From: Chloroflexota bacterium
GTDB lineage: Bacteria; Chloroflexota; Dehalococcoidia; Lucifugimonadales; UBA3495
Direction: 5' to 3'
Assembly (NCBI GenBank): GCA_028875055.1
Contig: JAPPGG010000050.1
Location: 1-59,406 of the forward strand
DNA length: 59,406 nt
Part shown: positions 4,145 through 37,263 of the stretch, piece by piece
How the letters are laid out: each line of letters starts with the position of its first letter
Position numbering within the stretch: the stretch's first letter is position 1
Position numbers and translations under genes: made by a program
Notes under the pieces: generated by a model
What the model was told of the DNA's origin: nothing
The model's input: only the letters and a program-made list of their open reading frames with translations
Databases searched by the model: none

Positions 4145-5203
4145 CTAGCGAAGGCGTTGGGCTGCCCTGGCCAGCAGGCGGGGGAAGCGCAGCCGGCCGT
4201 CGGGCCGCGTCGCCAGTTCGCCCACGTCGCCGACCCCCTGGGGCAGGTTGACCACGGCGGCCCGGTTGCCCAGCAGTTGCTTGAGTTCCTGGGCCGCCGC
4301 GTTGCCCGCGCCGTCGTTGTCGAAGGCCAGGAATACCCGTGGGCAGCCCCTGAGCGCCATCGCCACCCTGTCCATGCCCTTCGTCCCCAGGGCGGCTACG
4401 GCGGAATGGCCCCACGCCGTGAGGGTCAGCCAGTCGAAGACCCCTTCGGCGACAATTACACACGGCGGCGCGGAACCCAACCGGGCCATCCCCAGCAGTG
4501 GCTTGGGGCCGGGCAACGCCTGGAAGCGGGGCCGGGCGTCGGGTTCCACGGCCCGTCCCACCAGCCAGACGGCCAGCCCGCTGGCGAGTTCGGGGACCAC
4601 CACCATTCCGGCGAACCGTTCCCTTCCGTGTTCCAGGAACAGGCCGCTGGCCCGGAGCCGCTGGGTTGTGAAGCCGTTGGCCTGCAGGTGTTCCCGCAGG
4701 CCGTGGCCCGGCGCGTAGCCCAGACCCAGCCGCCGGGCCGCCTCCAGGCCGATGCCCCGGGAGGCCAGGTACTCCAGGGCTGCCCGGTTGCGCCGCAGTT
4801 GCCCGCCGTAGAACCGGACCGCCGCCGTCAGAAGGGCCGGGTTTCGGGGCGGAATGACCGGGACAGTGGGTTGAAGAGATGAAACGGGGCGGTTGAACGG
4901 CGCCCGTGGCGGCGGAGTTGATCCGTCATCCAGCCGCCGGATGGCCTGGGGCAGGGTCAGGCCCTCCATGCGCCCCACGAAGTCCAGCACGTCGCCGCCC
5001 GCTCCGCAGCCGAAGCAGTAGTAACGCTGGCTGTCGCCGTACACCGTGAAGCTCCCCTCCGCCTCGTCGTGAAAGGGGCAGACGCCCTGGCGCACCCGGC
5101 CCCTGCCGTGCAGGACCACCCCGGCAGCCTCCACCGTGTCCCCCAGGGGATGCCGCGCCTTGAGTTCGAGAATGTCCACCTTGTCCGATGTCGCCAGCAC
5201 CAT
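4145..5203 (-). CDS. DnaG-like primase (CHC2 zinc finger plus TOPRIM)
   Basis: The 352-residue protein has a CHC2-type zinc site at C42-P-F-H45 and C63-F-G-C66, an N-terminal helical region, and a TOPRIM domain with the glutamate of 'VIVAEGVFDWL' near residue 252 and D-N-D near 294 in 'FLAFDNDGAG'. It is much shorter than chromosomal DnaG (about 600 residues) because the C-terminal helicase-binding region is missing, as in many phage and plasmid primases. GGAGG precedes the ATG, which overlaps the upstream stop by one base (TAATG). It would make RNA primers for element replication or for the complementary strand after transfer. Confidence 0.9.
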   Translation of the reverse strand: MVLATSDKVDILELKARHPLGDTVEAAGVVLHGRGRVRQGVCPFHDEAEGSFTVYGDSQRYYCFGCGAGGDVLDFVGRMEGLTLPQAIRRLDDGSTPPPRAPFNRPVSSLQPTVPVIPPRNPALLTAAVRFYGGQLRRNRAALEYLASRGIGLEAARRLGLGYAPGHGLREHLQANGFTTQRLRASGLFLEHGRERFAGMVVVPELASGLAVWLVGRAVEPDARPRFQALPGPKPLLGMARLGSAPPCVIVAEGVFDWLTLTAWGHSAVAALGTKGMDRVAMALRGCPRVFLAFDNDGAGNAAAQELKQLLGNRAAVVNLPQGVGDVGELATRPDGRLRFPRLLARAAQRLR

Positions 5204-12128: not shown

Positions 12129-14384
12129 ATGGCAAAACCCAGATTTCCCAATCCGAACAACCTGAAAGACCTGGCCCGGCGCTGGCCTCCGGGCCCCTCA
12201 CGACACCAGGTCGCTGGCGGAGGAGAGGAGCCCGTTGCCGGGGAACCCAAGCCACCGCCGGACCTTAATCTGTTCTTCATGCTTTCCCACCTGGAGGAGG
12301 ACGGCCCGGTGCGGCTGGACGGGGTAAAGCTGGCGGTGCTGGAGGTGATGGGTTTGGAGCTGGACGAGCCCAAGCTGGGCGCCTTCGCCGGTTCCCTGAA
12401 CGCGGTGGACTTTCCGGTGCAACTGTCGGTCAGGCAGCACCCGCCGGTCCTTTCAACCTTGCGCAACAACTTGATGGCGGCCCAGCCCGAAGACCTGCCC
12501 CAACAGACCAAGGATGCCGCCGACAGCCTGGGGCGGTTGCTGACCACCCTGGAAACCCGGGAAGGCATCCTGGACCGGCGTTTCTATACCGTATGCGAGC
12601 ACAGCCGCAGGGATGAACTGCATGGCCTCCTGGTCCGAGCCGGCTTGGGAGTGTTCCCCCTGGTGGGCGAACCCTTGCGCCTCTTCTGGCTATCGGCAAC
12701 CCTGGGCGGTTCGCCCAACCAAAGAGACGAGCAGACCCAAATGGAGGTGCAAGTGAACCGAAGAGACATCCGCATCGGGGAGCGCCTGGTCTGTTCCCTG
12801 CACCTGGGCAAGTGGCCCCGCAGTCTCGCGCCCGGTTTCCTGCAAGGGCTGATGGCCGCCGGCGCGCCCATGGATCTGTCGGTGCACCTGGGGGCGATAC
12901 CGGCGGAGCAGGCGGCCCGCACCCTGGAATGGCAGAAGGTCAGGTTTGAATCAGCCCAGAGCCTGTCCTTCAAGCGGGGCCGCTCCATGTCGCCCGAGGC
13001 GGAGATCGCCCTGGAGGACGTGAGCCGTCTCAGGGACGAGGTTCAGCGGGGCCGGGAGCGACTGTTCCACGCATCCCTATCCGTCACGCTTCACGCCGAC
13101 AATGCCGACACTCTGAAGGACCTGACCCAGAAGGCCCGGGCCCACTTCGCCGCCACGTTGGGCAAGCTGGACAACCTGGCCTTCCGCCAGCGGGAGGGCC
13201 TGCTGTCCACCTTGCCTCTGGGCCTGAACGCCGTGGCGGTTTGGCGTACGTTGGACACATCATCGTTGGCGCGGTTGTTTCCCTTCTCGCCGCCGGACCT
13301 GGACACCCGTTCCGGCACCCTCTACGGCATCGACCTGCGGGCCTGCGCCCCCATCGTCTACGACCCCTTCGACGGGACCCACCTGAACGCCAACACCGCC
13401 GTCCTGGCGAGGTCGGGTTCAGGAAAATCCTTCGCAACCAAGCTGGGAGTGCTAAGGGGCCTATGCCGGGGGGTGCGGGCCTACGTGATAGACCCGGAGG
13501 GGGAGTACGCCGACATGGCCCGCGCCGCTGGCGGACGGGTACTGTCGCCCGGCGTCCCGGGACAGGGCATGAACCCCTTCGTCATCGACCGGGGCGACAG
13601 CGAGGAACTGTTGCAGCGCATCGGCAGCCTCAGACGGCTCATCGAGGTGATGGTGGGGGAACGCTTGAGCGCCGAGCGGCGTTCCAGCCTGGACCACGCC
13701 CTGGCCGGTTACTACTCCGAAAGGCGGGAGCGCACCGGCTTCCGCGATTTCTACGCCTACCTGCAGGAGGAGACGCCGGAGATCGCCCACCTGCTGCGCC
13801 CCTTCGCCACCGGCAGCCTGCGCGACCTGCTCTCCGACGAGGGCGACGACCTGCTGGCCCGCGAGGCCCTGGTGACGGTGTTCGACCTGCACCTGCTGGA
13901 GCCGGAGCTGAGACCGGCGGCGGCCATGGTCTGCACCGAGACGGTGTGGGCGGCCGCCGCCCAGGACCCCCGGCCAAGACTGCTGGTGGTGGACGAGGTG
14001 TGGAGCATCATGCAGCACCCGGAGGGCGCGGCCTTCATGGTCAGCATGGCGAAACGCGCCCGCAAGCACCGGCTGGGGCTCCAGTTCATCACCCAGGACG
14101 TGCAGGACCTCCTCAGCGAGGACTCCTCCCGCGCCATCACCGGCCACTCCGGCCGGGCGCTGTTGCAGAACGCCGCCTTCAAGCTGCTTTTGCAGCAGGA
14201 CGCCGCCGCCGTCAGCACCGTGGGCGAAGCCTTCGACCTGCCCGAGGAACTGCAACGGTGGCTGCTGTCCTGTCCCAGGGGCGACGGGCTTCTCCTGGCC
14301 CGGGGCAACCGCTTTCCCGTGCGCATTGAGGCCACCCCCGAGGAGACCCAAGTAATCGAGTGGCGACCCGGCCCCCGGCGCTAG
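12129..14384 (+). CDS. VirB4-family conjugation ATPase
   Basis: The 751-residue protein carries a Walker A motif near residues 428-437 ('ARSGSGKSF') and a Walker B near 618-625 ('LLVVDEVW'). Between and after them come typical VirB4 blocks, for example 'DPEGEYADMARAAGGRVL' and 'LQFITQDVQDLLS'. AAAGGAG lies before the ATG, and the gene follows the second pilin by 20 bases. VirB4 ATPases energise assembly of the type IV secretion channel and pilus from the cytoplasmic side. With the PrgI-like, TrbL-like and VirD4-like genes this makes a nearly complete minimal mating-pair apparatus. Confidence 0.92.
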   Translation: MAKPRFPNPNNLKDLARRWPPGPSRHQVAGGGEEPVAGEPKPPPDLNLFFMLSHLEEDGPVRLDGVKLAVLEVMGLELDEPKLGAFAGSLNAVDFPVQLSVRQHPPVLSTLRNNLMAAQPEDLPQQTKDAADSLGRLLTTLETREGILDRRFYTVCEHSRRDELHGLLVRAGLGVFPLVGEPLRLFWLSATLGGSPNQRDEQTQMEVQVNRRDIRIGERLVCSLHLGKWPRSLAPGFLQGLMAAGAPMDLSVHLGAIPAEQAARTLEWQKVRFESAQSLSFKRGRSMSPEAEIALEDVSRLRDEVQRGRERLFHASLSVTLHADNADTLKDLTQKARAHFAATLGKLDNLAFRQREGLLSTLPLGLNAVAVWRTLDTSSLARLFPFSPPDLDTRSGTLYGIDLRACAPIVYDPFDGTHLNANTAVLARSGSGKSFATKLGVLRGLCRGVRAYVIDPEGEYADMARAAGGRVLSPGVPGQGMNPFVIDRGDSEELLQRIGSLRRLIEVMVGERLSAERRSSLDHALAGYYSERRERTGFRDFYAYLQEETPEIAHLLRPFATGSLRDLLSDEGDDLLAREALVTVFDLHLLEPELRPAAAMVCTETVWAAAAQDPRPRLLVVDEVWSIMQHPEGAAFMVSMAKRARKHRLGLQFITQDVQDLLSEDSSRAITGHSGRALLQNAAFKLLLQQDAAAVSTVGEAFDLPEELQRWLLSCPRGDGLLLARGNRFPVRIEATPEETQVIEWRPGPRR

Positions 14385-14446: not shown

Positions 14447-17038
14447 ATGAGTATCAACGTAAAGCACCTCCTGTTCGGCGAAAAGCCGGCCACGAGGCCC
14501 CCCGCATTGCTGGCAGTTGTGCCTCACCGTACCGGGGAGCGCACCCTTCTGGGTGTGGAAAACCTGCTCCAGTCCGTCGCTGTCCCTGAACCCTTTTCCC
14601 TGGAACTGGCCGGAGACATGGACGGCGTGACCCTGCTGGCCCGCTGCATGGATGACCGAGTGGTAAAGCAGCAATTGGCCTCTCACTATCCCCAGGCCCG
14701 CGTCCGCGAGGTAGTTCCCGAAGACGATCCCATGCGTCGCAGGCAGGGAGAGCTGGCCTGGGGACTGACCCTTCGCGCCGGAGGGCCGGAGTACGTGCCC
14801 CTACGCTGCTTTCGGGACGAGGACCTGCTGGATCCGGGCTCCGATCCCCTGCTGGCGGTCATCGGCGCTCTGTCCTCCCTGCGGCCCGGAGAGCGCATTG
14901 TCTCCCGTTTGCTGCTGCGCTCCCTGGGTCCTGAATGGTCCCAAGCCCACCAGGCCAAGGCTCATAAGCGTGCCGTCCCTGATCCACGGGATCCGTCCTA
15001 CACCTACCACACTCGGCCTCTCCAGGTGGATGGCGTGACTATGGCCGTGCTGGGCGCCGGGGCTCTTGCCGCCCTGCGGGGCTACCTGTGGGTACAAGAC
15101 GGAGAAATTTTCAAGGCGTCTCTGCTCGGCCTGGGCAGCATCCTGGGCATGGTGCTGGCCGGCTGGGCTTGGTGGCGCTGGAAGCAAACCCGAAGCCGGG
15201 TCTACGACCCGCTGTTAATCCGGGAAAAGGTCTCCCGCATCGCCTTCGACGCCGAGCTGCAGCTCACGGCGTTCCTGCCTGCCGAAGCCGGCGAGGAGCG
15301 GGCATTCGACCTGCTGGAAAGCGTCGCCGCTGCCTACCGCCACTACGACCATCCTGCTGGCGCGCGGTTCAAGGCTGGGAAGATCAAGCCTCTCTACCCG
15401 ACTGCCGCCATCCACCCGGCGGGGCCGGGGATTTTCGGCAAGCGCAGCGTTTTGGGAGTCAGGGAGGCGTCAGCCCTGTGGCACCCTCCTGGCGCGGGGG
15501 ACGAGACGCCGTTGGTGGAGCGTTCGGGCTCCAGGTCACTGGCCCCCCAGCCCCGCAACGTCCGAATCGGCGCGCCGGTGGGCGAGGCCCCTGGGTCTAT
15601 CCCCGGCGATGTCCATTTCTCCGACGACCTCCTGCGCCGCCACCATCTCTATGTAGCCCGCACCCGCATGGGCAAGTCAACGTTGATGCAACACGTCGTC
15701 GCCCACAAACTCAGGGAGAAGGCGGCGGGCCGGGACAGGGACTCCATCATCGTGGTGGACCCCCACGCCGACCTGGTGGCGAGTCTGCTGGAGCAGGTAC
15801 CCGCGTCCATCGTAGACCGGGTAAGACTCATCGACCTGGCCGACGACCGGGGAGCGCCGGGCATCAACCTGCTGGACACTCGTATCTTCGCCGACCGGGA
15901 CCGCACCGCCGACTCGGTGGTGCGGGTGGCCCGTGGACTCTGGGACCAATGGGGTCCTCGAATGCAGTCAATCCTGGAACACACCGTCAAGACTCTCCAC
16001 GAAGCCAACGAGAGTCAGGACGCCGCCGAGCAGTACACCATACTGGACGGGATGCGGCTCATTTCCGACGGCAAGTTTCGTGCCGACGCGCTGGCCAGAG
16101 TCACCGACCCCTACCTGCTGGAATGGTGGGCCCGGGACTTCAACAACTGGCACCGCCAGTACCGCTCCGAGGCCATCGCCCCGGTCCAGACCCGGCTGGC
16201 CTACTATGCCTCCTCCAAGAAGGCCCGTTCCATCTTGGGCCAGTCCCGTTCCACCATTGATATTCGACAGACTGTGCTGGAGGGCGGCATTCTCTTCGTT
16301 TCCACTGCCCAGGGAACGGTGGGCCGGGACGTGGCCGCCTTGGTGGGAGCGTCCCTGCTCAACCTGGTGGACTCGGTGATCCGGGAGCAGGAGGGCATGC
16401 CCCAGGCACAGAGGCGGGGAGCGCTGGTGGTAGTCGACGAGATGCAGTCCATGCCCGGCGTGGACTACGAGTCCATGCTCAGCGAGCTGGGCAAGTACGG
16501 CGCCAGCTTTATCCTGGCCACCCAGAGCTTGGCCAAGCTTGACGACATTTCCCGTACCTTGCAGGACACCATCCTGGCCAATGTGGGCTGCCTGGCCGTG
16601 TTCCAGGTGTCGGGTGGCGACGCCCGCCGGTTGGTGTGGGAGCTGGGCAAGGACCGGGTAAGCGAGGACGATATCACCTCCCTGCCGGTACATCACTGCT
16701 ACGTGCGAGCCACGGTGGGCACCGACCGATTGCCCTCCTTCTCCATGATGGTCAGGAAACCTGAGCCTGGCGACGCCCAAATCGCCGCCAGTATCCGCGC
16801 TTCCGCCACCGGCTACACCACCAGGACGGGGGAGATCGCTACCGCCAGCGCAGAGGGAGAGCGGAAGCTCAGCGCTTACCAGCGGCAGTTGCTGGAACTG
16901 CCGAACGGCCACCAGCCCGACCTGCAGCAAGGGGAGCCCGAGCCTGAACCCGGGCGCAACAAGCAGCGCAGCAGGCGTAGCCCGGCGGTTGAGGACGTTG
17001 GAGAGACATTCTGTGGCTCGGAGGATGGGGAAGAATGA
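14447..17038 (+). CDS. VirD4/TraD-type coupling ATPase
   Basis: The 863-residue protein has two hydrophobic segments near 196-213 and 222-243, a Walker A near 403-413 ('ARTRMGKSTL'), a following 'IIVVDPHADLV' block and a Walker B near 658-667 ('ALVVVDEMQS'). The order membrane anchor, Walker A, all-helical insert, Walker B matches type IV coupling proteins that pump the relaxase-DNA complex into the channel. The region between 270 and 400 is not recognised. Helix and linker near the C-terminus end in a charged tail ('GEPEPEPGRNKQRSRR'). The stop overlaps the next gene. Confidence 0.88.
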   Translation: MSINVKHLLFGEKPATRPPALLAVVPHRTGERTLLGVENLLQSVAVPEPFSLELAGDMDGVTLLARCMDDRVVKQQLASHYPQARVREVVPEDDPMRRRQGELAWGLTLRAGGPEYVPLRCFRDEDLLDPGSDPLLAVIGALSSLRPGERIVSRLLLRSLGPEWSQAHQAKAHKRAVPDPRDPSYTYHTRPLQVDGVTMAVLGAGALAALRGYLWVQDGEIFKASLLGLGSILGMVLAGWAWWRWKQTRSRVYDPLLIREKVSRIAFDAELQLTAFLPAEAGEERAFDLLESVAAAYRHYDHPAGARFKAGKIKPLYPTAAIHPAGPGIFGKRSVLGVREASALWHPPGAGDETPLVERSGSRSLAPQPRNVRIGAPVGEAPGSIPGDVHFSDDLLRRHHLYVARTRMGKSTLMQHVVAHKLREKAAGRDRDSIIVVDPHADLVASLLEQVPASIVDRVRLIDLADDRGAPGINLLDTRIFADRDRTADSVVRVARGLWDQWGPRMQSILEHTVKTLHEANESQDAAEQYTILDGMRLISDGKFRADALARVTDPYLLEWWARDFNNWHRQYRSEAIAPVQTRLAYYASSKKARSILGQSRSTIDIRQTVLEGGILFVSTAQGTVGRDVAALVGASLLNLVDSVIREQEGMPQAQRRGALVVVDEMQSMPGVDYESMLSELGKYGASFILATQSLAKLDDISRTLQDTILANVGCLAVFQVSGGDARRLVWELGKDRVSEDDITSLPVHHCYVRATVGTDRLPSFSMMVRKPEPGDAQIAASIRASATGYTTRTGEIATASAEGERKLSAYQRQLLELPNGHQPDLQQGEPEPEPGRNKQRSRRSPAVEDVGETFCGSEDGEE

Positions 17039-18669
17039 TGTTCAGCGATTGCGAGAAAGAACTGCTGGGCCTGTTGGCGGAGTTGCCTTTCGCCGACCGG
17101 CTTGACCTGACGGCCCTCTCCGGATGGTCCCGGGGAGCAGTGTACGCCGGTATGGACAGATTGCAGGAAGGGAGGTTGGTTGACGCCATCCCCCACGCTA
17201 CGCCTTTGCTGCCGAGGTACTGTCTCACCTCACGAGGACTGCTCTGCCTGGCAGACATCGCGGCCATGCCACAGGAGGAAATGCTGCGCCGGCGTCCAGT
17301 ATCGGCCCAATGGCAAAGGGTGTTGTTGCAACGGCTTGACGCCCTGGCCGTGATCTATCGTTTGGTTGCCGCCGTCTCCAACGCGGCATTTCCCATCAGA
17401 GTACGACTGTTCCGGGCAGGGCCGGTGGACGCAGCAATAGTGCTGCCCGAGGGAAGGACGGTGGCCGTGGTCCGGCAGGGATTGACCGTGGACCGCACTG
17501 GCTTTTCCAAGCGGCTGTGGCGTCTCAGGGAGGGAACGCCGCCGGGTGGCCTCCTGGTGCTGGCCCCCGACGACGTACGGCTGCGCCAGGCCCGCCGTAT
17601 GCTGAACGGCGCGAACTTTCCCGTGTTTCTGGGCCTGGAACGCGATGCCACCGTGGCGGGCTTGGACTCCCCCGTGTGGCGTCCCCCCACCATCGCCGTA
17701 GATCTGGACCTGCGTTACATCCTGACCCACCTGGACCCACGCGGTAGTTTGCCAAAGGAGTCCCAGTTCACCCGTCACGCTTCGCCCGTCGGCATCACCT
17801 CGGACACGCGGGGACCGGACTGGCTGCTTCCCTCCGTGCTCGGCCCTGCCGAGAAGCGCGTCCTGGACCTGGTCTCCGACTGGCCCTGGGTTTCTCGGCG
17901 GGACTTGGCGGGAATTATGGGGGTGTCGGTACGGAGGGTGGCCCAGCTGGTTGGCCGGCTGAAGGATATGGGCCTGGTTCACCAGGCCGATGATGGACGC
18001 CACGGACGACTGGTTCTTAGCGACCGGGGGCTGGGGCTCCTGGCCCGACGGGATCGCGTCTCCGTCGGCGCGGCGCGGCGGCGTTGGAGCGCGGCCTCTT
18101 TGAACCCGCCTGCGCCACTGTCCTGGCGCAACGTCTCAGGATCCCGCAGCCGACAGTTGCTTCGCAACCTGGACCACACCAGCGCGGTTCACCGGTTCCT
18201 CGTTGCGCTGTGCGAACAGGCCCGAGCCGCGGGCTGGGAGGCTGTTGAGCTGGACCCGCCCTGGCGGGCGTCGCGCTACTTCCGGTACGAAGGACGGCTC
18301 CATTCGGTATTGCCCGACGCCTTCGGAGTCTTGCGCCTGGGCAACAAGACTCTACCCTTTTTCCTGGAGTGGGAGCGGCGGGCGGTACGGCCCGTCACCA
18401 TGGCGGCAAGGCTGGCCCCCTACTTGCGCTACTACTCTTCCCCCAGACCCCTGGACGACCACGGCGCGGAGCCCGTCGTCCTGGTGGTTTTCGACGAAGA
18501 GCTGGCCGCCAGCCACTTCCCCCGCCTGACCCGTCGGGAGATGGACCGTTCCGGTGTTGATGTTCCCCTGCGGATATCCCACCGGAAGGCATTGGAACAG
18601 TTGGGTCCCCTGGGGCGGGCCTGGCAAATCCCCGGCCTCTGGCAGCCGCACTATGCCTTCGAGGGCTGA
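17035..18669 (+). CDS. Replication-relaxation family protein (likely DNA processing for transfer)
   Basis: The 544-residue protein overlaps the coupling ATPase gene (ATGATG at the junction). Two winged-helix regions are visible: residues about 5-65 ('LSGWSRGAVYAGMDRLQEGRLV') and about 280-340 ('WPWVSRRDLAGIMGVSVRRVAQLVGRLKDMGLV'). The C-terminal third follows the replication-relaxation pattern (Pfam PF13814): 'LDHTSAVHRFLVAL', then 'PDAFGVLRLGNKTLPFFLEW', then 'LAPYLRYY', a restriction-nuclease-like fold. No classical relaxase (MOB) gene is seen, so this is the best candidate for the element's origin-processing protein, though nicking activity in this family is not established to my knowledge. 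Confidence 0.75.
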   Translation: MMFSDCEKELLGLLAELPFADRLDLTALSGWSRGAVYAGMDRLQEGRLVDAIPHATPLLPRYCLTSRGLLCLADIAAMPQEEMLRRRPVSAQWQRVLLQRLDALAVIYRLVAAVSNAAFPIRVRLFRAGPVDAAIVLPEGRTVAVVRQGLTVDRTGFSKRLWRLREGTPPGGLLVLAPDDVRLRQARRMLNGANFPVFLGLERDATVAGLDSPVWRPPTIAVDLDLRYILTHLDPRGSLPKESQFTRHASPVGITSDTRGPDWLLPSVLGPAEKRVLDLVSDWPWVSRRDLAGIMGVSVRRVAQLVGRLKDMGLVHQADDGRHGRLVLSDRGLGLLARRDRVSVGAARRRWSAASLNPPAPLSWRNVSGSRSRQLLRNLDHTSAVHRFLVALCEQARAAGWEAVELDPPWRASRYFRYEGRLHSVLPDAFGVLRLGNKTLPFFLEWERRAVRPVTMAARLAPYLRYYSSPRPLDDHGAEPVVLVVFDEELAASHFPRLTRREMDRSGVDVPLRISHRKALEQLGPLGRAWQIPGLWQPHYAFEG

Positions 18670-28178: not shown

Positions 28179-28451
28179 ATGCCCCGTCAGAAGATGCGCC
28201 ACCAACGGGGGCTCTACCAGTTTCCCGACGACTTTCCTGATTGCCTGCAACGCATCAAGGAGGCCAGCGGGCTTTCCTGGAGCGAGCTGGCTCGCCGGCT
28301 GGGAACCAGCCCGCTCACCATCCGGCGCTGGCGGCGGGGGGTCCAACCCTCCGCTCACTATCTGCTGGCTCTCCAGGATCTGACTGAAGAGTTGGGGTTG
28401 GCCCACCTGCTGCCCAGGGCCAAGGCGCTGCACCGCCAGTTGGTGAATTGA
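28179..28451 (+). CDS. Small XRE-type HTH protein 3
   Basis: The 90-residue product contains a clear helix-turn-helix ('IKEASGLSWSELARRLGTSP', 'LTIRRWRRGVQPSAHYLLAL'). It follows the previous gene by four bases. A perfect 14-base palindrome (28450-28463) overlaps its stop codon, a possible self-regulatory site. Confidence 0.78.
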   Translation: MPRQKMRHQRGLYQFPDDFPDCLQRIKEASGLSWSELARRLGTSPLTIRRWRRGVQPSAHYLLALQDLTEELGLAHLLPRAKALHRQLVN

Positions 28452-28463
28452 CATTGCAATGTC
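28450..28463. promoter_or_regulatory. Perfect 14-base palindrome
   Basis: GACATTGCAATGTC overlaps the stop of the third HTH gene and lies upstream of the recombinase promoter region. It has the size of an operator for a dimeric HTH protein. Confidence 0.45.
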
Positions 28464-28538
28464 CCCTCACCGCCCTCGGTGCATCGTCGGACCGTCATTC
28501 GTCTGTATCCTTTGGAGTCTACAATTCTACCTCCGATA

Positions 28539-28658: not shown

Positions 28659-28838
28659 ATGAGTGCCAAGAGGAAGCAACAGGAGTTGCCGCCGGACCTT
28701 CGGGCTTTCCTGAGAGAAGTTGGCGAGGCAGTGACGGAATACCTGGAGACGAAACACAAGGAAAGCCGTAAAATAGGAGCGATGCCAAAGGATGGTGAAA
28801 AACGTGATGAGAGCAGCCGGCTACTTCCGGGTCAGTGA
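28659..28838 (+). CDS. Small charged protein overlapping the recombinase gene
   Basis: The 59-residue product starts at 28659 with GGAGA upstream. It is highly charged: 'MSAKRKQQELPPDLRAFLRE', then a Glu/Lys-rich helix. It overlaps the recombinase start by about 47 bases in another frame, which suggests coupled translation. Small charged proteins next to serine integrases can be directionality factors, but this one has no recognised motif. Confidence 0.5.
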   Translation: MSAKRKQQELPPDLRAFLREVGEAVTEYLETKHKESRKIGAMPKDGEKRDESSRLLPGQ

Positions 28839-30393
28839 CGAGGACCAAGTAGAAGGATACTCCCTGGATGCCCAGCGACGGGCATTCGGGGAGTTTTGCC
28901 GAAGCAAGGGTTGGGAACCCGTGGCAGAGTATTCCGAGGAGGGCCGTTCCGCCTGGCTTGAGTCAATGGCAAAAAGACCTGCATTTCGCCAAATGCTGGA
29001 AGACGCCCAAGCCAGAAAGTTCGATGTTCTCGTGACCCATACTTTGGACCGGTTTTCCAGGAACCTTCGGGTCATGCTGGATGCCTTTCACACTTTCTCC
29101 CAGAGTGATGTTACTTACGTTTCCATTACCCAGGAGATCGACTACTCGAAACCTGAAGGCAAGTTGTTTATGACCATGTTGGGAGCGTTTGCCCAATACT
29201 TTTCTGATGCTCTCTCGGGCCACACAAAGAAGGGGATGCGGGAAAGAGCGCAGCAGGGAATGTTCAACGGTGAACCTCCCTTCGGATACGAGCGTTGTGA
29301 CGTTGAATGCTTTGGCTTGAGCGAGGCCCACACCGGATGTCACGTGGAACAGGAAAAGGCATCAAGGATACTCGCTCTTTTCGAACGCTACGCCAGTGGC
29401 ACCGAATCCATGTCATCCCTGGCCGAGTGGTTCAATGAGCAGGGATTTCGCACGAAGGGCAAGCGAAGGGCCGAGTTTTTCAAGGAACTGGTGGAGGTTG
29501 ATGGCCGCCGCTTCACTCATTGGGCCATTCGGGACATTCTCAAGAACCCTTTCTACGTCGGCAAGGTCCGCCACAAAGATGAGCTTTTCGAGGGTCGCCA
29601 CCAAGCCATAGTCAGCCGGGAGCTGTTCGATGAAGTCCAGGAGCAGATGGCCAAGAACCGTTCCCGCAAGAGTTCAGCCAGTAACAGTAAGAGGCCGAAC
29701 CCTCACTTGCTGGCCGGGCTATTGCGCTGTCATGAGTGCGGGACGGTTCTCTGGTCTCAAAAGCAGGGAACTCAAACCGGAACCTACTATAAGTCCCCGG
29801 ATAAGGGTCTGGACACACCCTGCAGGCACAAGGGAAGGACCTTCGTGGGTCGGCAAATCGACGCCCAAACGGACCAGTTGTTTTGCGGTTTCACACTGCG
29901 GGAAGATTGGGTGGAATGGATAGTCGAGAACCATGTAAAGGAAGCCGATCCTAAAGCGGCAATCCGGCAGCGGCGCTCCATAGAAGAAAAAATTGAAAGG
30001 GCCCGCCACCTCTACATCACCGGGGATCTTACGTGGCAAGGATTCACGAAGATCAAGGACGAGGCGGAGGCCGCGATGGTCAGCATCTACATACCGGAGT
30101 ACGACGATGCTGTGGAAGCTGGCAATCTACTTAACGACTTCGGAGCCGTATGGGCATCGGCTTCTGTAGGAAGAAAAAACCGACTGCTAAGATCGATGCT
30201 TCAAGCAGTCTACGTGGACTTGGACAAGAGAGAGGTTGTTGGTCTGTTGCCGAAAAAATCCTTTATGGCGCCCATCCTGGCCATGTCGGACAGACGCGAC
30301 GTAGCTGTGATTGACGCCAAAAAGGAGTGTTTTAGAAGGGAAGGTGGAGACGGGGGAGAGTCGAACTCCCCGTCCAAAAGGCCCCCTGGCTAG
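28792..30393 (+). CDS. Large serine recombinase (element integrase)
   Basis: The 533-residue protein has the resolvase catalytic domain (catalytic S15 in 'YFRVSDEDQ', 'LDRFSRNLR'), the recombinase domain at about 165-290 ('WAIRDILKNPFYVGKVRHKD'), a zinc-ribbon region starting with C-H-E-C near 314, and a helical C-terminal part with a coiled-coil-like stretch. ATG at 28807 is an alternative start. The last 16 codons and the stop (30343-30393) are read from the antisense of the tmRNA 3' end, so its C-terminus is made by host DNA after integration. It would catalyse attP/attB recombination at ssrA. Confidence 0.93.
   Translation: MVKNVMRAAGYFRVSDEDQVEGYSLDAQRRAFGEFCRSKGWEPVAEYSEEGRSAWLESMAKRPAFRQMLEDAQARKFDVLVTHTLDRFSRNLRVMLDAFHTFSQSDVTYVSITQEIDYSKPEGKLFMTMLGAFAQYFSDALSGHTKKGMRERAQQGMFNGEPPFGYERCDVECFGLSEAHTGCHVEQEKASRILALFERYASGTESMSSLAEWFNEQGFRTKGKRRAEFFKELVEVDGRRFTHWAIRDILKNPFYVGKVRHKDELFEGRHQAIVSRELFDEVQEQMAKNRSRKSSASNSKRPNPHLLAGLLRCHECGTVLWSQKQGTQTGTYYKSPDKGLDTPCRHKGRTFVGRQIDAQTDQLFCGFTLREDWVEWIVENHVKEADPKAAIRQRRSIEEKIERARHLYITGDLTWQGFTKIKDEAEAAMVSIYIPEYDDAVEAGNLLNDFGAVWASASVGRKNRLLRSMLQAVYVDLDKREVVGLLPKKSFMAPILAMSDRRDVAVIDAKKECFRREGGDGGESNSPSKRPPG
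30330..30360. other. Right attachment junction at ssrA 3' end
   Basis: The tmRNA acceptor stem ends with ACC at 30345-30343. The next base on that strand is T, not the A of a CCA end, and element DNA (the recombinase gene) begins there. The crossover point must be within a few bases. No second copy of the ssrA 3' end was found in the window, so the left junction lies further left. Confidence 0.65.
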
Positions 30394-30695
30394 ATGTGCT
30401 ACAAGCTTGTCCGGCGATTAATGTCTCACCTGATGGCGCTTCCGCCGGCGAAATTTCCTTCAGGCCAGCCGAAAAGTCTTAGACAGCCCCTATCGGCATC
30501 GAGGACGCCGCATCCCGGTCTGTTGGCGCCCGTAGCCCCGCATCCGGGAATAGCAGGGTACGGACGTAGCCGCGCTTAGGCGGCTAGAGCGAATTCACGT
30601 TCGCCAGTTATTTGTGTGCCACCTGATTAACGAGGGCGGTGGCGCCTCGGCTTGCAATCTGCCACAGGACGCTCCTGTCGAACCCGCGCGTCCCC
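30343..30695 (-). ncRNA. ssrA: tmRNA
   Basis: The 353-base RNA has paired ends: GGGGACG at the 5' end (30695 down) with CGTCTCC before ACC at the 3' end, one G-U pair included. The T arm is GGGAG-TTCGACT-CTCCC. Near the 5' end is the typical GGGTTCGACAGG of the D-arm-like region. The tag frame ends GEREFALAA then TAA (30605-30576). The exact resume codon cannot be fixed, but the last nine codons resemble the Dehalococcoides tag. The A of the terminal CCA is not encoded, so the CCA enzyme would have to complete it. tmRNA rescues stalled ribosomes and marks their products for proteolysis. Confidence 0.93.
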
Positions 30696-30707
30696 ATAAC
30701 ACTCCCT

Positions 30708-30737
30708 ATTATACCATCCAGCGCCCGCTTCCCCCAA
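30708..30737 (-). promoter_or_regulatory. Promoter of ssrA
   Basis: TATAAT (30713-30708 on the minus strand) lies 12 bases before the mature 5' end of tmRNA, with a TTGGGG-like -35 about 18 bases upstream. Confidence 0.65.
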
Positions 30738-30975: not shown

Positions 30976-32121
30976 ATGAAACGCAGCACTTCCAGAATTC
31001 TCACCACCCATACCGGCAGCCTGCCCCGTTCTCCAGACCTCCAGGAGTTGCTCCGCCAGCGGGAGGAACAGGGGGATTTCGACGAGAACCTCTTCCGCAC
31101 CAGCGTCAGCGAGGCGGTGTCCGGGATTGTCGAACGGCAGCGGGCCACCGGCATTGACGTTGTGAACGATGGCGAGCAGGGACGTTCGCAGTACGCAACC
31201 TATGTCAAGGAGCGGCTGACCGGCTTTGAGGGGGAGCGCCTGGTACGGTCTCGCCCCCGGTTGGACGACGCCGACTTTCCCGAGTTTGCGGCCACCCAGG
31301 CTCATATGTCCTCCCGCAGCATGCCCCAGCCTGCCTGCACCGGTCCCATCGCGTGGAAGGACTGGCCCGCCGTGGAACGGGACATCGCCAACCTGCGGCA
31401 GGCGGCGGAGGGTCAGAACGTGGAGGAGGTATTCATGACCGCCGCCTCCCCTGGCGTGATCGCCAACTTCCTGCCCAACGAGTACTACGGGACCGACGAA
31501 GAGTACCTTTACGCCCTGGCCGAAGTAATGAAGGATGAATACAATGCCGTCGCCCAGGCCGGACTGATCCTGCAGGTTGACTGTCCCGACCTGGCCATGA
31601 CCCGTGTTTCCCAGTTCTCCCACCTGTCGGTGGAGGAATTCAAGAAAATCGTGGAATTGCACGTTGAGGTGATCAATTTCGCCCTGAAGGATATTGATCC
31701 GGAGCAGTTGCGGCTGCACGTATGCTGGGGCAACACGGAGGGTCCCCACCATCACGACGTGCCTTTGCGGGAAATTGCGCCCCTGATACTCCGCGCCCGG
31801 CCCCTGGGACTCTCTATTGAGGGCGCCAACCCCCGACACGGCCACGAATGGCGGGTGTGGGAGGATATCCGCCTGCCCGAAGGGAAATTACTGATACCCG
31901 GGGTGCTGGACACCACCACCAACTTCATCGAGCACCCGGAACTGGTTGCCCAGCGCATCCTGAACTATGCCGGAACGGTGGGCCGCGAAAACGTAATAGC
32001 GGGCAGTGACTGCGGATTCGGCACTTCGGCCTGGGGCCGCAAGGTGGAGACCAACATCGCCTGGGCCAAGCTGGCGGCCATGGCTGAAGGGGCAAGGCTG
32101 GCGACCAGGGAACTGTGGTAG
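30976..32121 (+). CDS. MetE-like cobalamin-independent methyltransferase
   Basis: The 381-residue protein begins with 'RILTTHTGSLPRSPDLQELL' and matches the C-terminal catalytic half of cobalamin-independent methionine synthase (UROD/MetE-like fold). It is half the length of full MetE and lacks the N-terminal domain. Zinc ligands are likely H248 and C250 in 'LHVCWGN' and C346 in 'GSDCGFGT'. Stand-alone proteins of this type transfer methyl or alkyl groups to thiols, and some use substrates other than homocysteine. GGAG precedes the ATG. It is the first chromosomal protein gene after ssrA, so it is host DNA. Confidence 0.82.
   Translation: MKRSTSRILTTHTGSLPRSPDLQELLRQREEQGDFDENLFRTSVSEAVSGIVERQRATGIDVVNDGEQGRSQYATYVKERLTGFEGERLVRSRPRLDDADFPEFAATQAHMSSRSMPQPACTGPIAWKDWPAVERDIANLRQAAEGQNVEEVFMTAASPGVIANFLPNEYYGTDEEYLYALAEVMKDEYNAVAQAGLILQVDCPDLAMTRVSQFSHLSVEEFKKIVELHVEVINFALKDIDPEQLRLHVCWGNTEGPHHHDVPLREIAPLILRARPLGLSIEGANPRHGHEWRVWEDIRLPEGKLLIPGVLDTTTNFIEHPELVAQRILNYAGTVGRENVIAGSDCGFGTSAWGRKVETNIAWAKLAAMAEGARLATRELW

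Positions 32122-32718: not shown

Positions 32719-37255
<4,537 letters not shown>

Positions 37256-37263
<8 letters not shown>

Follow-up and report, generated by a model that had tools for sequence, protein, structure and literature searches.

The window, the whole 59,406-nucleotide stretch of DNA that was analyzed, is contig C4 of genome G000 (75 contigs) and contains a single tmRNA gene, ssrA (ARAGORN and Rfam RF00023; 148.8 bits, E 1.6e-58), with the tag peptide GEREFALAA. Running into the 3′ end of ssrA from the opposite strand is a gene whose product contains a Resolvase domain (PF00239; E 3.8e-35) followed by a Recombinase domain (PF07508; E 2.2e-17) (Table 1). The zinc ribbon scores under the Pfam cut-off (18.8 versus 25.3 bits), with C313, C316, and C344 invariant, and the enzyme is a large serine recombinase (serine integrase). 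Recombinase codon 518 begins at 30343, the last base of the tmRNA 3′ end, and codons 518 to 533 (GGDGGESNSPSKRPPG) together with the stop codon are antisense to ssrA. A T follows the encoded CC of the tmRNA (30342 is A on the plus strand), so that the final A of CCA is unencoded. These three details of the overlap had been predicted originally, and ARAGORN, Rfam, and translation agree with them, the position of codon 518 to the base. The final A is encoded at the equivalent junction of G004, and its loss is therefore lineage specific. The overlap itself recurs in G003, G004, and related recombinases across the class and is therefore not a chance arrangement.

Of the open reading frames (ORFs) examined on the upstream side of the recombinase, one encodes an IrrE-like peptidase and the others are small, with an HTH or with no match. 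The ORF of about 59 aa that overlaps the recombinase start could be translationally coupled to it; a longer ORF containing 28659 to 28838 has no Pfam match. An inverted repeat at 28442 to 28471, considered as an operator, was rejected, as it straddles the end of the gene before it. In relatives, an empty ssrA has a terminator-like hairpin after it (compare L046:10825-10885 with window positions 30343-30720). Integration puts the recombinase gene in place of the hairpin, and the ssrA and recombinase transcripts may therefore overlap in antisense.

Table 1. Positions of the element, its genes, the att core, ssrA, and the chromosomal flank in the window
Feature	Position	Strand	Basis
Right-hand ICE part	1-30342		G001 and G002 (empty-site relatives) without match on this ssrA side
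DnaG-like primase	4145-5203	-	Pfam Zn_ribbon_DnaG 3.4e-18, Toprim
VirB4/TraC-like conjugation ATPase	12129-14384	+	Pfam P-loop_TraG 2.3e-13, TraC_F_IV 3.5e-7
Type IV coupling protein	14447-17038	+	Pfam TrwB_AAD_bind 1.8e-7
Replic_Relax protein, probable relaxase	17035-18669	+	Pfam PF13814 3.4e-10
Small HTH_3 regulator upstream of recombinase	28179-28451	+	Pfam HTH_3 2.9e-7
Small ORF, ~59 aa (MSAKRKQQELPPDLRAFLREVGEAV...), overlapping recombinase start	28659-28838	+	Upstream-region alignment: nucleotides conserved in G004
Large serine recombinase, integrated form, 533 aa	28792-30393	+	Pfam Resolvase and Recombinase, translation, AlphaFold
Right att core, 16-bp direct repeat GGTGGAGACGGGGGAG	30343-30358	+	Pattern search and junction comparison
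Tail codons at or beyond ssrA side of repeat, ESNSPSKRPPG and stop	30358-30393	+	Integrated versus reconstructed circular frames
ssrA (tmRNA), integration target	30343-30695	-	ARAGORN and Rfam RF00023; 3′ end rebuilt by element
Meth_synt_2 family gene, chromosomal flank on ssrA 5′ side	30976-32121	+	Pfam Meth_synt_2 1.5e-13
Glutamate synthase, conserved chromosomal flank	32719-37263	+	Pfam; syntenic beside ssrA in G001, G002, G004, G007

Junctions, empty site, and gene content of the element

The genomes compared are assemblies, several of them MAGs. A search of the whole G000 genome for the ssrA 3′ end hit ssrA and, in addition, contig C62 (23121-23138, minus strand). The C62 hit contains the second copy of the 16-bp repeat (C62:23123-23138, minus strand), which spans from the CC of the tRNA-like 3′ end into the T-arm and forms the left junction. 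The left junction reads TGGTGGAGACGGGGGAG followed by GCCTTGAGCC (in short form, TGGTGGAGACGGGGGAG followed by GCCTTGAG), and the right junction reads GAA, GGTGGAGACGGGGGAG, and then AGTCGAACTC (in short form, GGTGGAGACGGGGGAG followed by AGTCGAAC). In G002, a genome of the same genus, an empty ssrA site on contig C20 reads TGGTGGAGACGGGGGAG followed by AGTCGAACTC. A small gene lies about 190 bp from the C62 repeat, and its G002 counterpart adjoins ssrA directly with no recombinase between them. The junction pair of G003 is identical to that of G000. The original prediction was of an element integrated at ssrA, to be checked by finding the left junction and an empty ssrA site in a relative; both are present, the former in the same genome and the latter in the same genus.

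Exact copies of the repeat number exactly two in each of G000, G003, G004, and G183, and therefore there is one element per site, a tandem of two being unlikely. Within the window, no second copy of the ssrA 3′ end was found, only chance-level 12-base matches, and a G000 sequence matching the repeat with one or two mismatches (C17:39042) was set aside as chance. On the 5′ side of ssrA, the Meth_synt_2 gene adjoins ssrA in G003 and G004 and is a fragment in G002. G001 was rejected as an empty-site relative: its ssrA has a different 3′ neighborhood, with a terminator-like hairpin directly after the gene, and so shows an unoccupied ssrA and not a matching flank. Genes conserved downstream of the G001 ssrA are located elsewhere in G000 (C14) and gave no route to the junction. 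At the left junction on G183:C52 (L272, L173), the chromosomal flank shares about 27 bp with the element's own right arm (ACCCCGTATGGGGAATxTACACGGGAT), a match that might be left over from an earlier integration.

The recombinase adjoins ssrA in three genomes of the genus, as it would if it were a fixed chromosomal neighbor of ssrA and no mobile element's integrase. It is, however, absent from ssrA in the same-genus genomes G001 and G002, the site in G002 being empty; the exact 16-bp repeat marks the far junction in G000 and G003; and related recombinases are found at ssrA in scattered lineages. We regard a fixed neighbor as extremely improbable.

The inserted DNA is an ICE, because a VirB4-like ATPase, a coupling protein, and a relaxase are encoded beside the serine recombinase. 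Integrase, relaxase, coupling protein, and VirB4-type ATPase lie between the att sites across a join of C62 to C4 that we infer; should these contigs be adjacent, the element would measure 53 kb or more. It runs past the start of the window contig, with 23.1 kb or more of its left end located on C62.

Recombinases specific for ssrA

The ssrA-specific genomic islands of Dehalococcoides carry a serine recombinase of about 540 aa, DsiB, whose gene always overlaps the att site and has its stop codon in ssrA or in the next island; the islands have a 20-bp repeat, with insertion at the T-loop (McMurdie et al. 2011, PMC3146451). The overlap of a recombinase gene with ssrA is thus already known, having been reported in 2011 for DsiB. 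The window enzyme is 36 to 40% identical to DsiB-type relatives and falls with them in one ssrA-specific clade. Its best matches outside its own order are recombinases at ssrA in G223 and G258 (40% identity over the matched region, E 1e-115), genomes of 1.4 to 1.5 Mb with several rdhA-like ORFs, as in Dehalococcoides, which we take genomes of this type to be. In a phylogenetic tree, which carries a long-branch warning and from which a strict motif filter dropped 21 intended rows, the 15 tested recombinases located at ssrA or its repeat form one clade (100/100) apart from tRNA-gene relatives, and the window type is the sister of the DsiB-like group. Like DsiB, the window recombinase is of similar size, integrates at the ssrA 3′ end with insertion at the T-loop, has a short repeat ending in the T-arm, and is encoded by a gene running through its own att site. 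Identity and tree topology together indicate that the two share common descent. The original prediction had considered a large serine recombinase at ssrA to be less usual than a tyrosine integrase; within this class that expectation fails, as a whole ssrA-specific clade exists, DsiB relatives included. Unlike the DsiB islands, the window element has conjugation genes, and no DsiA partner was detected among the ORFs examined upstream of its recombinase, nor any ParB, Mom, or polymerase gene.

The ssrA-encoded tail was compared across the same clade. An AlphaFold model of the window recombinase, built with a 15-row alignment, is folded to about residue 500, and residues 512 to 533 have pLDDT below 50; with a mean pLDDT of 72.9 and a pTM of 0.37, the model is good enough only for the broad conclusion that the tail lies outside the fold. 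The wider clade reads the same ssrA DNA in three frames (GGDGGES..., VETGES..., and WRRGRVEL...), with differing tail lengths. All integrated window-type copies carry the 16-residue tail, its sequence fixed by ssrA, and the tail might itself, as originally proposed, be a signal altering the stability or activity of the integrated-state enzyme. Against this, the frames used in other subclades yield unrelated tails of widely varying lengths, and the low-pLDDT residues 512 to 533 include the tail, so that a signaling role is improbable. Because frame and length vary across the clade and the residues are predicted to be disordered, selection on the tail sequence in itself appears unlikely. The tail is probably not what matters, the larger difference between the two forms being an HTH domain gained in the circle.

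Related large serine recombinases in G241, G254, and G278 (L257, L262, L268) end in antisense tRNA-Asp and tRNA-Gly genes, with C-termini such as RPRRDSNPRSRP, and the habit of 3′ overlap is therefore not confined to ssrA. The C-terminus of the L213 recombinase of G208 (DGIRTHDLRRDRPIC) resembles a putative antisense tRNA. Several genomes of the order carry five to nine exact ssrA 3′ end repeats, with multirepeat loci in G124 (L138-L143), G033 (L186, L193, L198, L200), and G031 (L187, L194, L199, L201). In G124, an identical-scoring 493-aa recombinase ORF precedes each of two repeats. Such repeat numbers suggest that islands are arrayed in these genomes as they are in Dehalococcoides, with recombinases of other types.

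The recombinase frame across the attP of the circle

The attP of the excised form was reconstructed by joining the right arm of the element, the repeat, and the left arm in silico; only in G181 is the joined form natural. The recombinase frame stays open through the reconstructed attP and encodes 610 aa in both G000 and G003, so that after excision the enzyme would end differently, as had been predicted, with 610 residues instead of 533. In place of ESNSPSKRPPG, the circle encodes an 88-residue extension containing an HTH_3 domain above the Pfam cut-off. HTH_3 is found in frame after the repeat in G000 (1.4e-8), G004 (3.1e-8), and G183 (4.1e-13) and is encoded in the same frame in G003. The G004 copy, on C275, has 64% identity over the extension and repeat, and the G183 copy, on C52, is much diverged. 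In G181, recombinase C-terminus, repeat, and HTH (5.8e-6) constitute one ORF of 293 codons on a single contig, away from ssrA; this copy is a decayed remnant. An AlphaFold model of the natural G181 fusion fragment, made with no alignment, was of too poor quality and was discarded. On viral contigs, we detected no relative of the recombinase and none of the HTH tail.

Beyond the repeat, G000 and G004 differ with a dN of 0.26 and a dS of 1.7. Third positions account for 16 of the 28 substitutions in the linker (p 0.008) and for 37 of 67 over the whole extension (p 0.0002). By these measures, the HTH extension is under purifying selection.

An absence of stop codons before the att core might have produced the long frame as read-through without function, the ssrA tail and attP extension being incidental and the HTH an independent regulator that happens to be in frame. 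Such read-through would fit the three frames in which subclades read the ssrA-antisense tail and the predicted disorder of that tail. It would also fit the short attP tails of Dehalococcoides-like genomes, in which the attP-side frame stops after about 18 to 20 residues (35 in one case) and lacks an HTH; the HTH part is therefore not essential in the wider clade. Possible start codons within the extension (in-frame ATG at positions 7 and 13 in G004, GTG at 17 in G183) mean that the HTH ORF could be translated separately. However, the linker between repeat and HTH keeps the frame open through to the HTH in four lineages, its length varying by whole codons, and has the third-position bias described above; the candidate internal starts of G000 and G003 (TTG at codon 16, GTG at codon 17) are TTA and GTA in G004; and the G181 fusion is one ORF. 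We consider read-through without function unlikely, and the simplest reading of these sequences is that the extension would be translated as part of the recombinase. Two other sets of conserved attP-side tails were set aside: those from further ssrA islands within the order (frame 2, WRRGRVELGLKHGL...) and those of Dehalococcoides-like genomes (VETGEGWL...) show no recognizable HTH and may stem from att-arm DNA.

The window type differs from DsiB in that its attP extension encodes HTH_3, whereas the DsiB-like tail is about 15 to 20 residues. Relative to DsiB, two things are new: the set of ICE genes and the extension with an HTH across attP.

Proposed mechanism, comparable systems, and cargo

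The element is likely to be an ICE whose ssrA-specific recombinase gene holds its own crossover site, with the form of the protein set by the free or integrated state. The crossover site lies inside the recombinase gene, and therefore the protein made would depend on that state. In the excised circle, the gene would encode 610 aa in which a short linker, running through the 16-bp att core, joins the recombinase to HTH_3, and this long form would be translated there. Integration would remove the predicted DNA-binding HTH domain from the recombinase, leaving it the 16-residue antisense-ssrA tail, and the element would supply the end of the tmRNA gene. The integrated form keeps its catalytic and DNA-binding domains intact (Pfam, AlphaFold), and the clipped recombinase would serve in the integrated state. 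We infer that the HTH domain controls expression or directionality of the recombinase in the circle, most likely by autoregulation or by favoring integration. The fuller proposal, that the recombinase-HTH fusion of the free element integrates it and controls its own expression or direction until the crossover deletes the control domain, we hold to be about evenly balanced between true and false. Switching of integrases between integration and excision usually needs separate directionality factors. If the proposal is true, DNA rearrangement itself edits the enzyme.

SSV-type suicidal tyrosine integrases have attP inside the integrase gene, and only the circle encodes the full protein; recombinases that disrupt their own gene are stated to be exclusive to archaea (reviewed in PMC8371274). 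The window recombinase likewise has attP inside its frame (reconstructed in G000 and G003, natural in G181), and its full protein is encoded only by the circle. It is, however, of the serine family and bacterial rather than an archaeal tyrosine integrase, and integration leaves the SSV-type enzymes as fragments that are presumed inactive, whereas the window recombinase loses no more than the added domain and retains an undivided serine core. If the window recombinase does signal whether its element is integrated, it would be a bacterial, serine-family equivalent of the archaeal suicidal integrases, one that leaves an enzyme still able to work. Gene splitting upon integration, described for archaeal tyrosine integrases, would then also occur among bacterial serine recombinases.

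In integration-dependent immunity, attP lies in a phage repressor gene (PMC6109161), and there, as here, integration exchanges the C terminus of a protein encoded across attP. In that system the repressor is altered and its free form is degradation tagged, whereas in the window element the recombinase is altered and its free form gains an HTH. Engineered fusions of serine integrases to RDFs show that a covalently attached domain changes the direction of recombination (PMC5737554); those fusions are artificial and the attached part is an RDF, whereas the HTH described here is natural and might act in this way by analogy. In the literature searched, which covered few subscription papers, no serine recombinase is described in which the frame across attP encodes an HTH domain. 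The authors of the DsiB study suggested that only the circular form might give fully functional DsiB (PMC3146451), and the question raised in 2011, of whether the enzyme differs on the circle and whether such a difference matters, can now be put directly to the test, given defined proteins and att sites.

The left part of the ICE (G000:C62:13626-21155; L095, L270) encodes a squalene-hopene cyclase, an HpnH-like radical SAM protein with DUF3463, a phosphorylase, and an NAD epimerase, a hopanoid-type cluster, plus a cytochrome P450. In G004:C275 (L132), too, DNA of the HpnH region comes after the HTH end. Membrane-lipid genes would be unusual as ICE cargo. Related conjugation modules are present on three further contigs of G000 (C15, C35, and C67; L084, L085, and L086) at 77 to 81% nucleotide identity, and G000 therefore contains several sibling ICEs.
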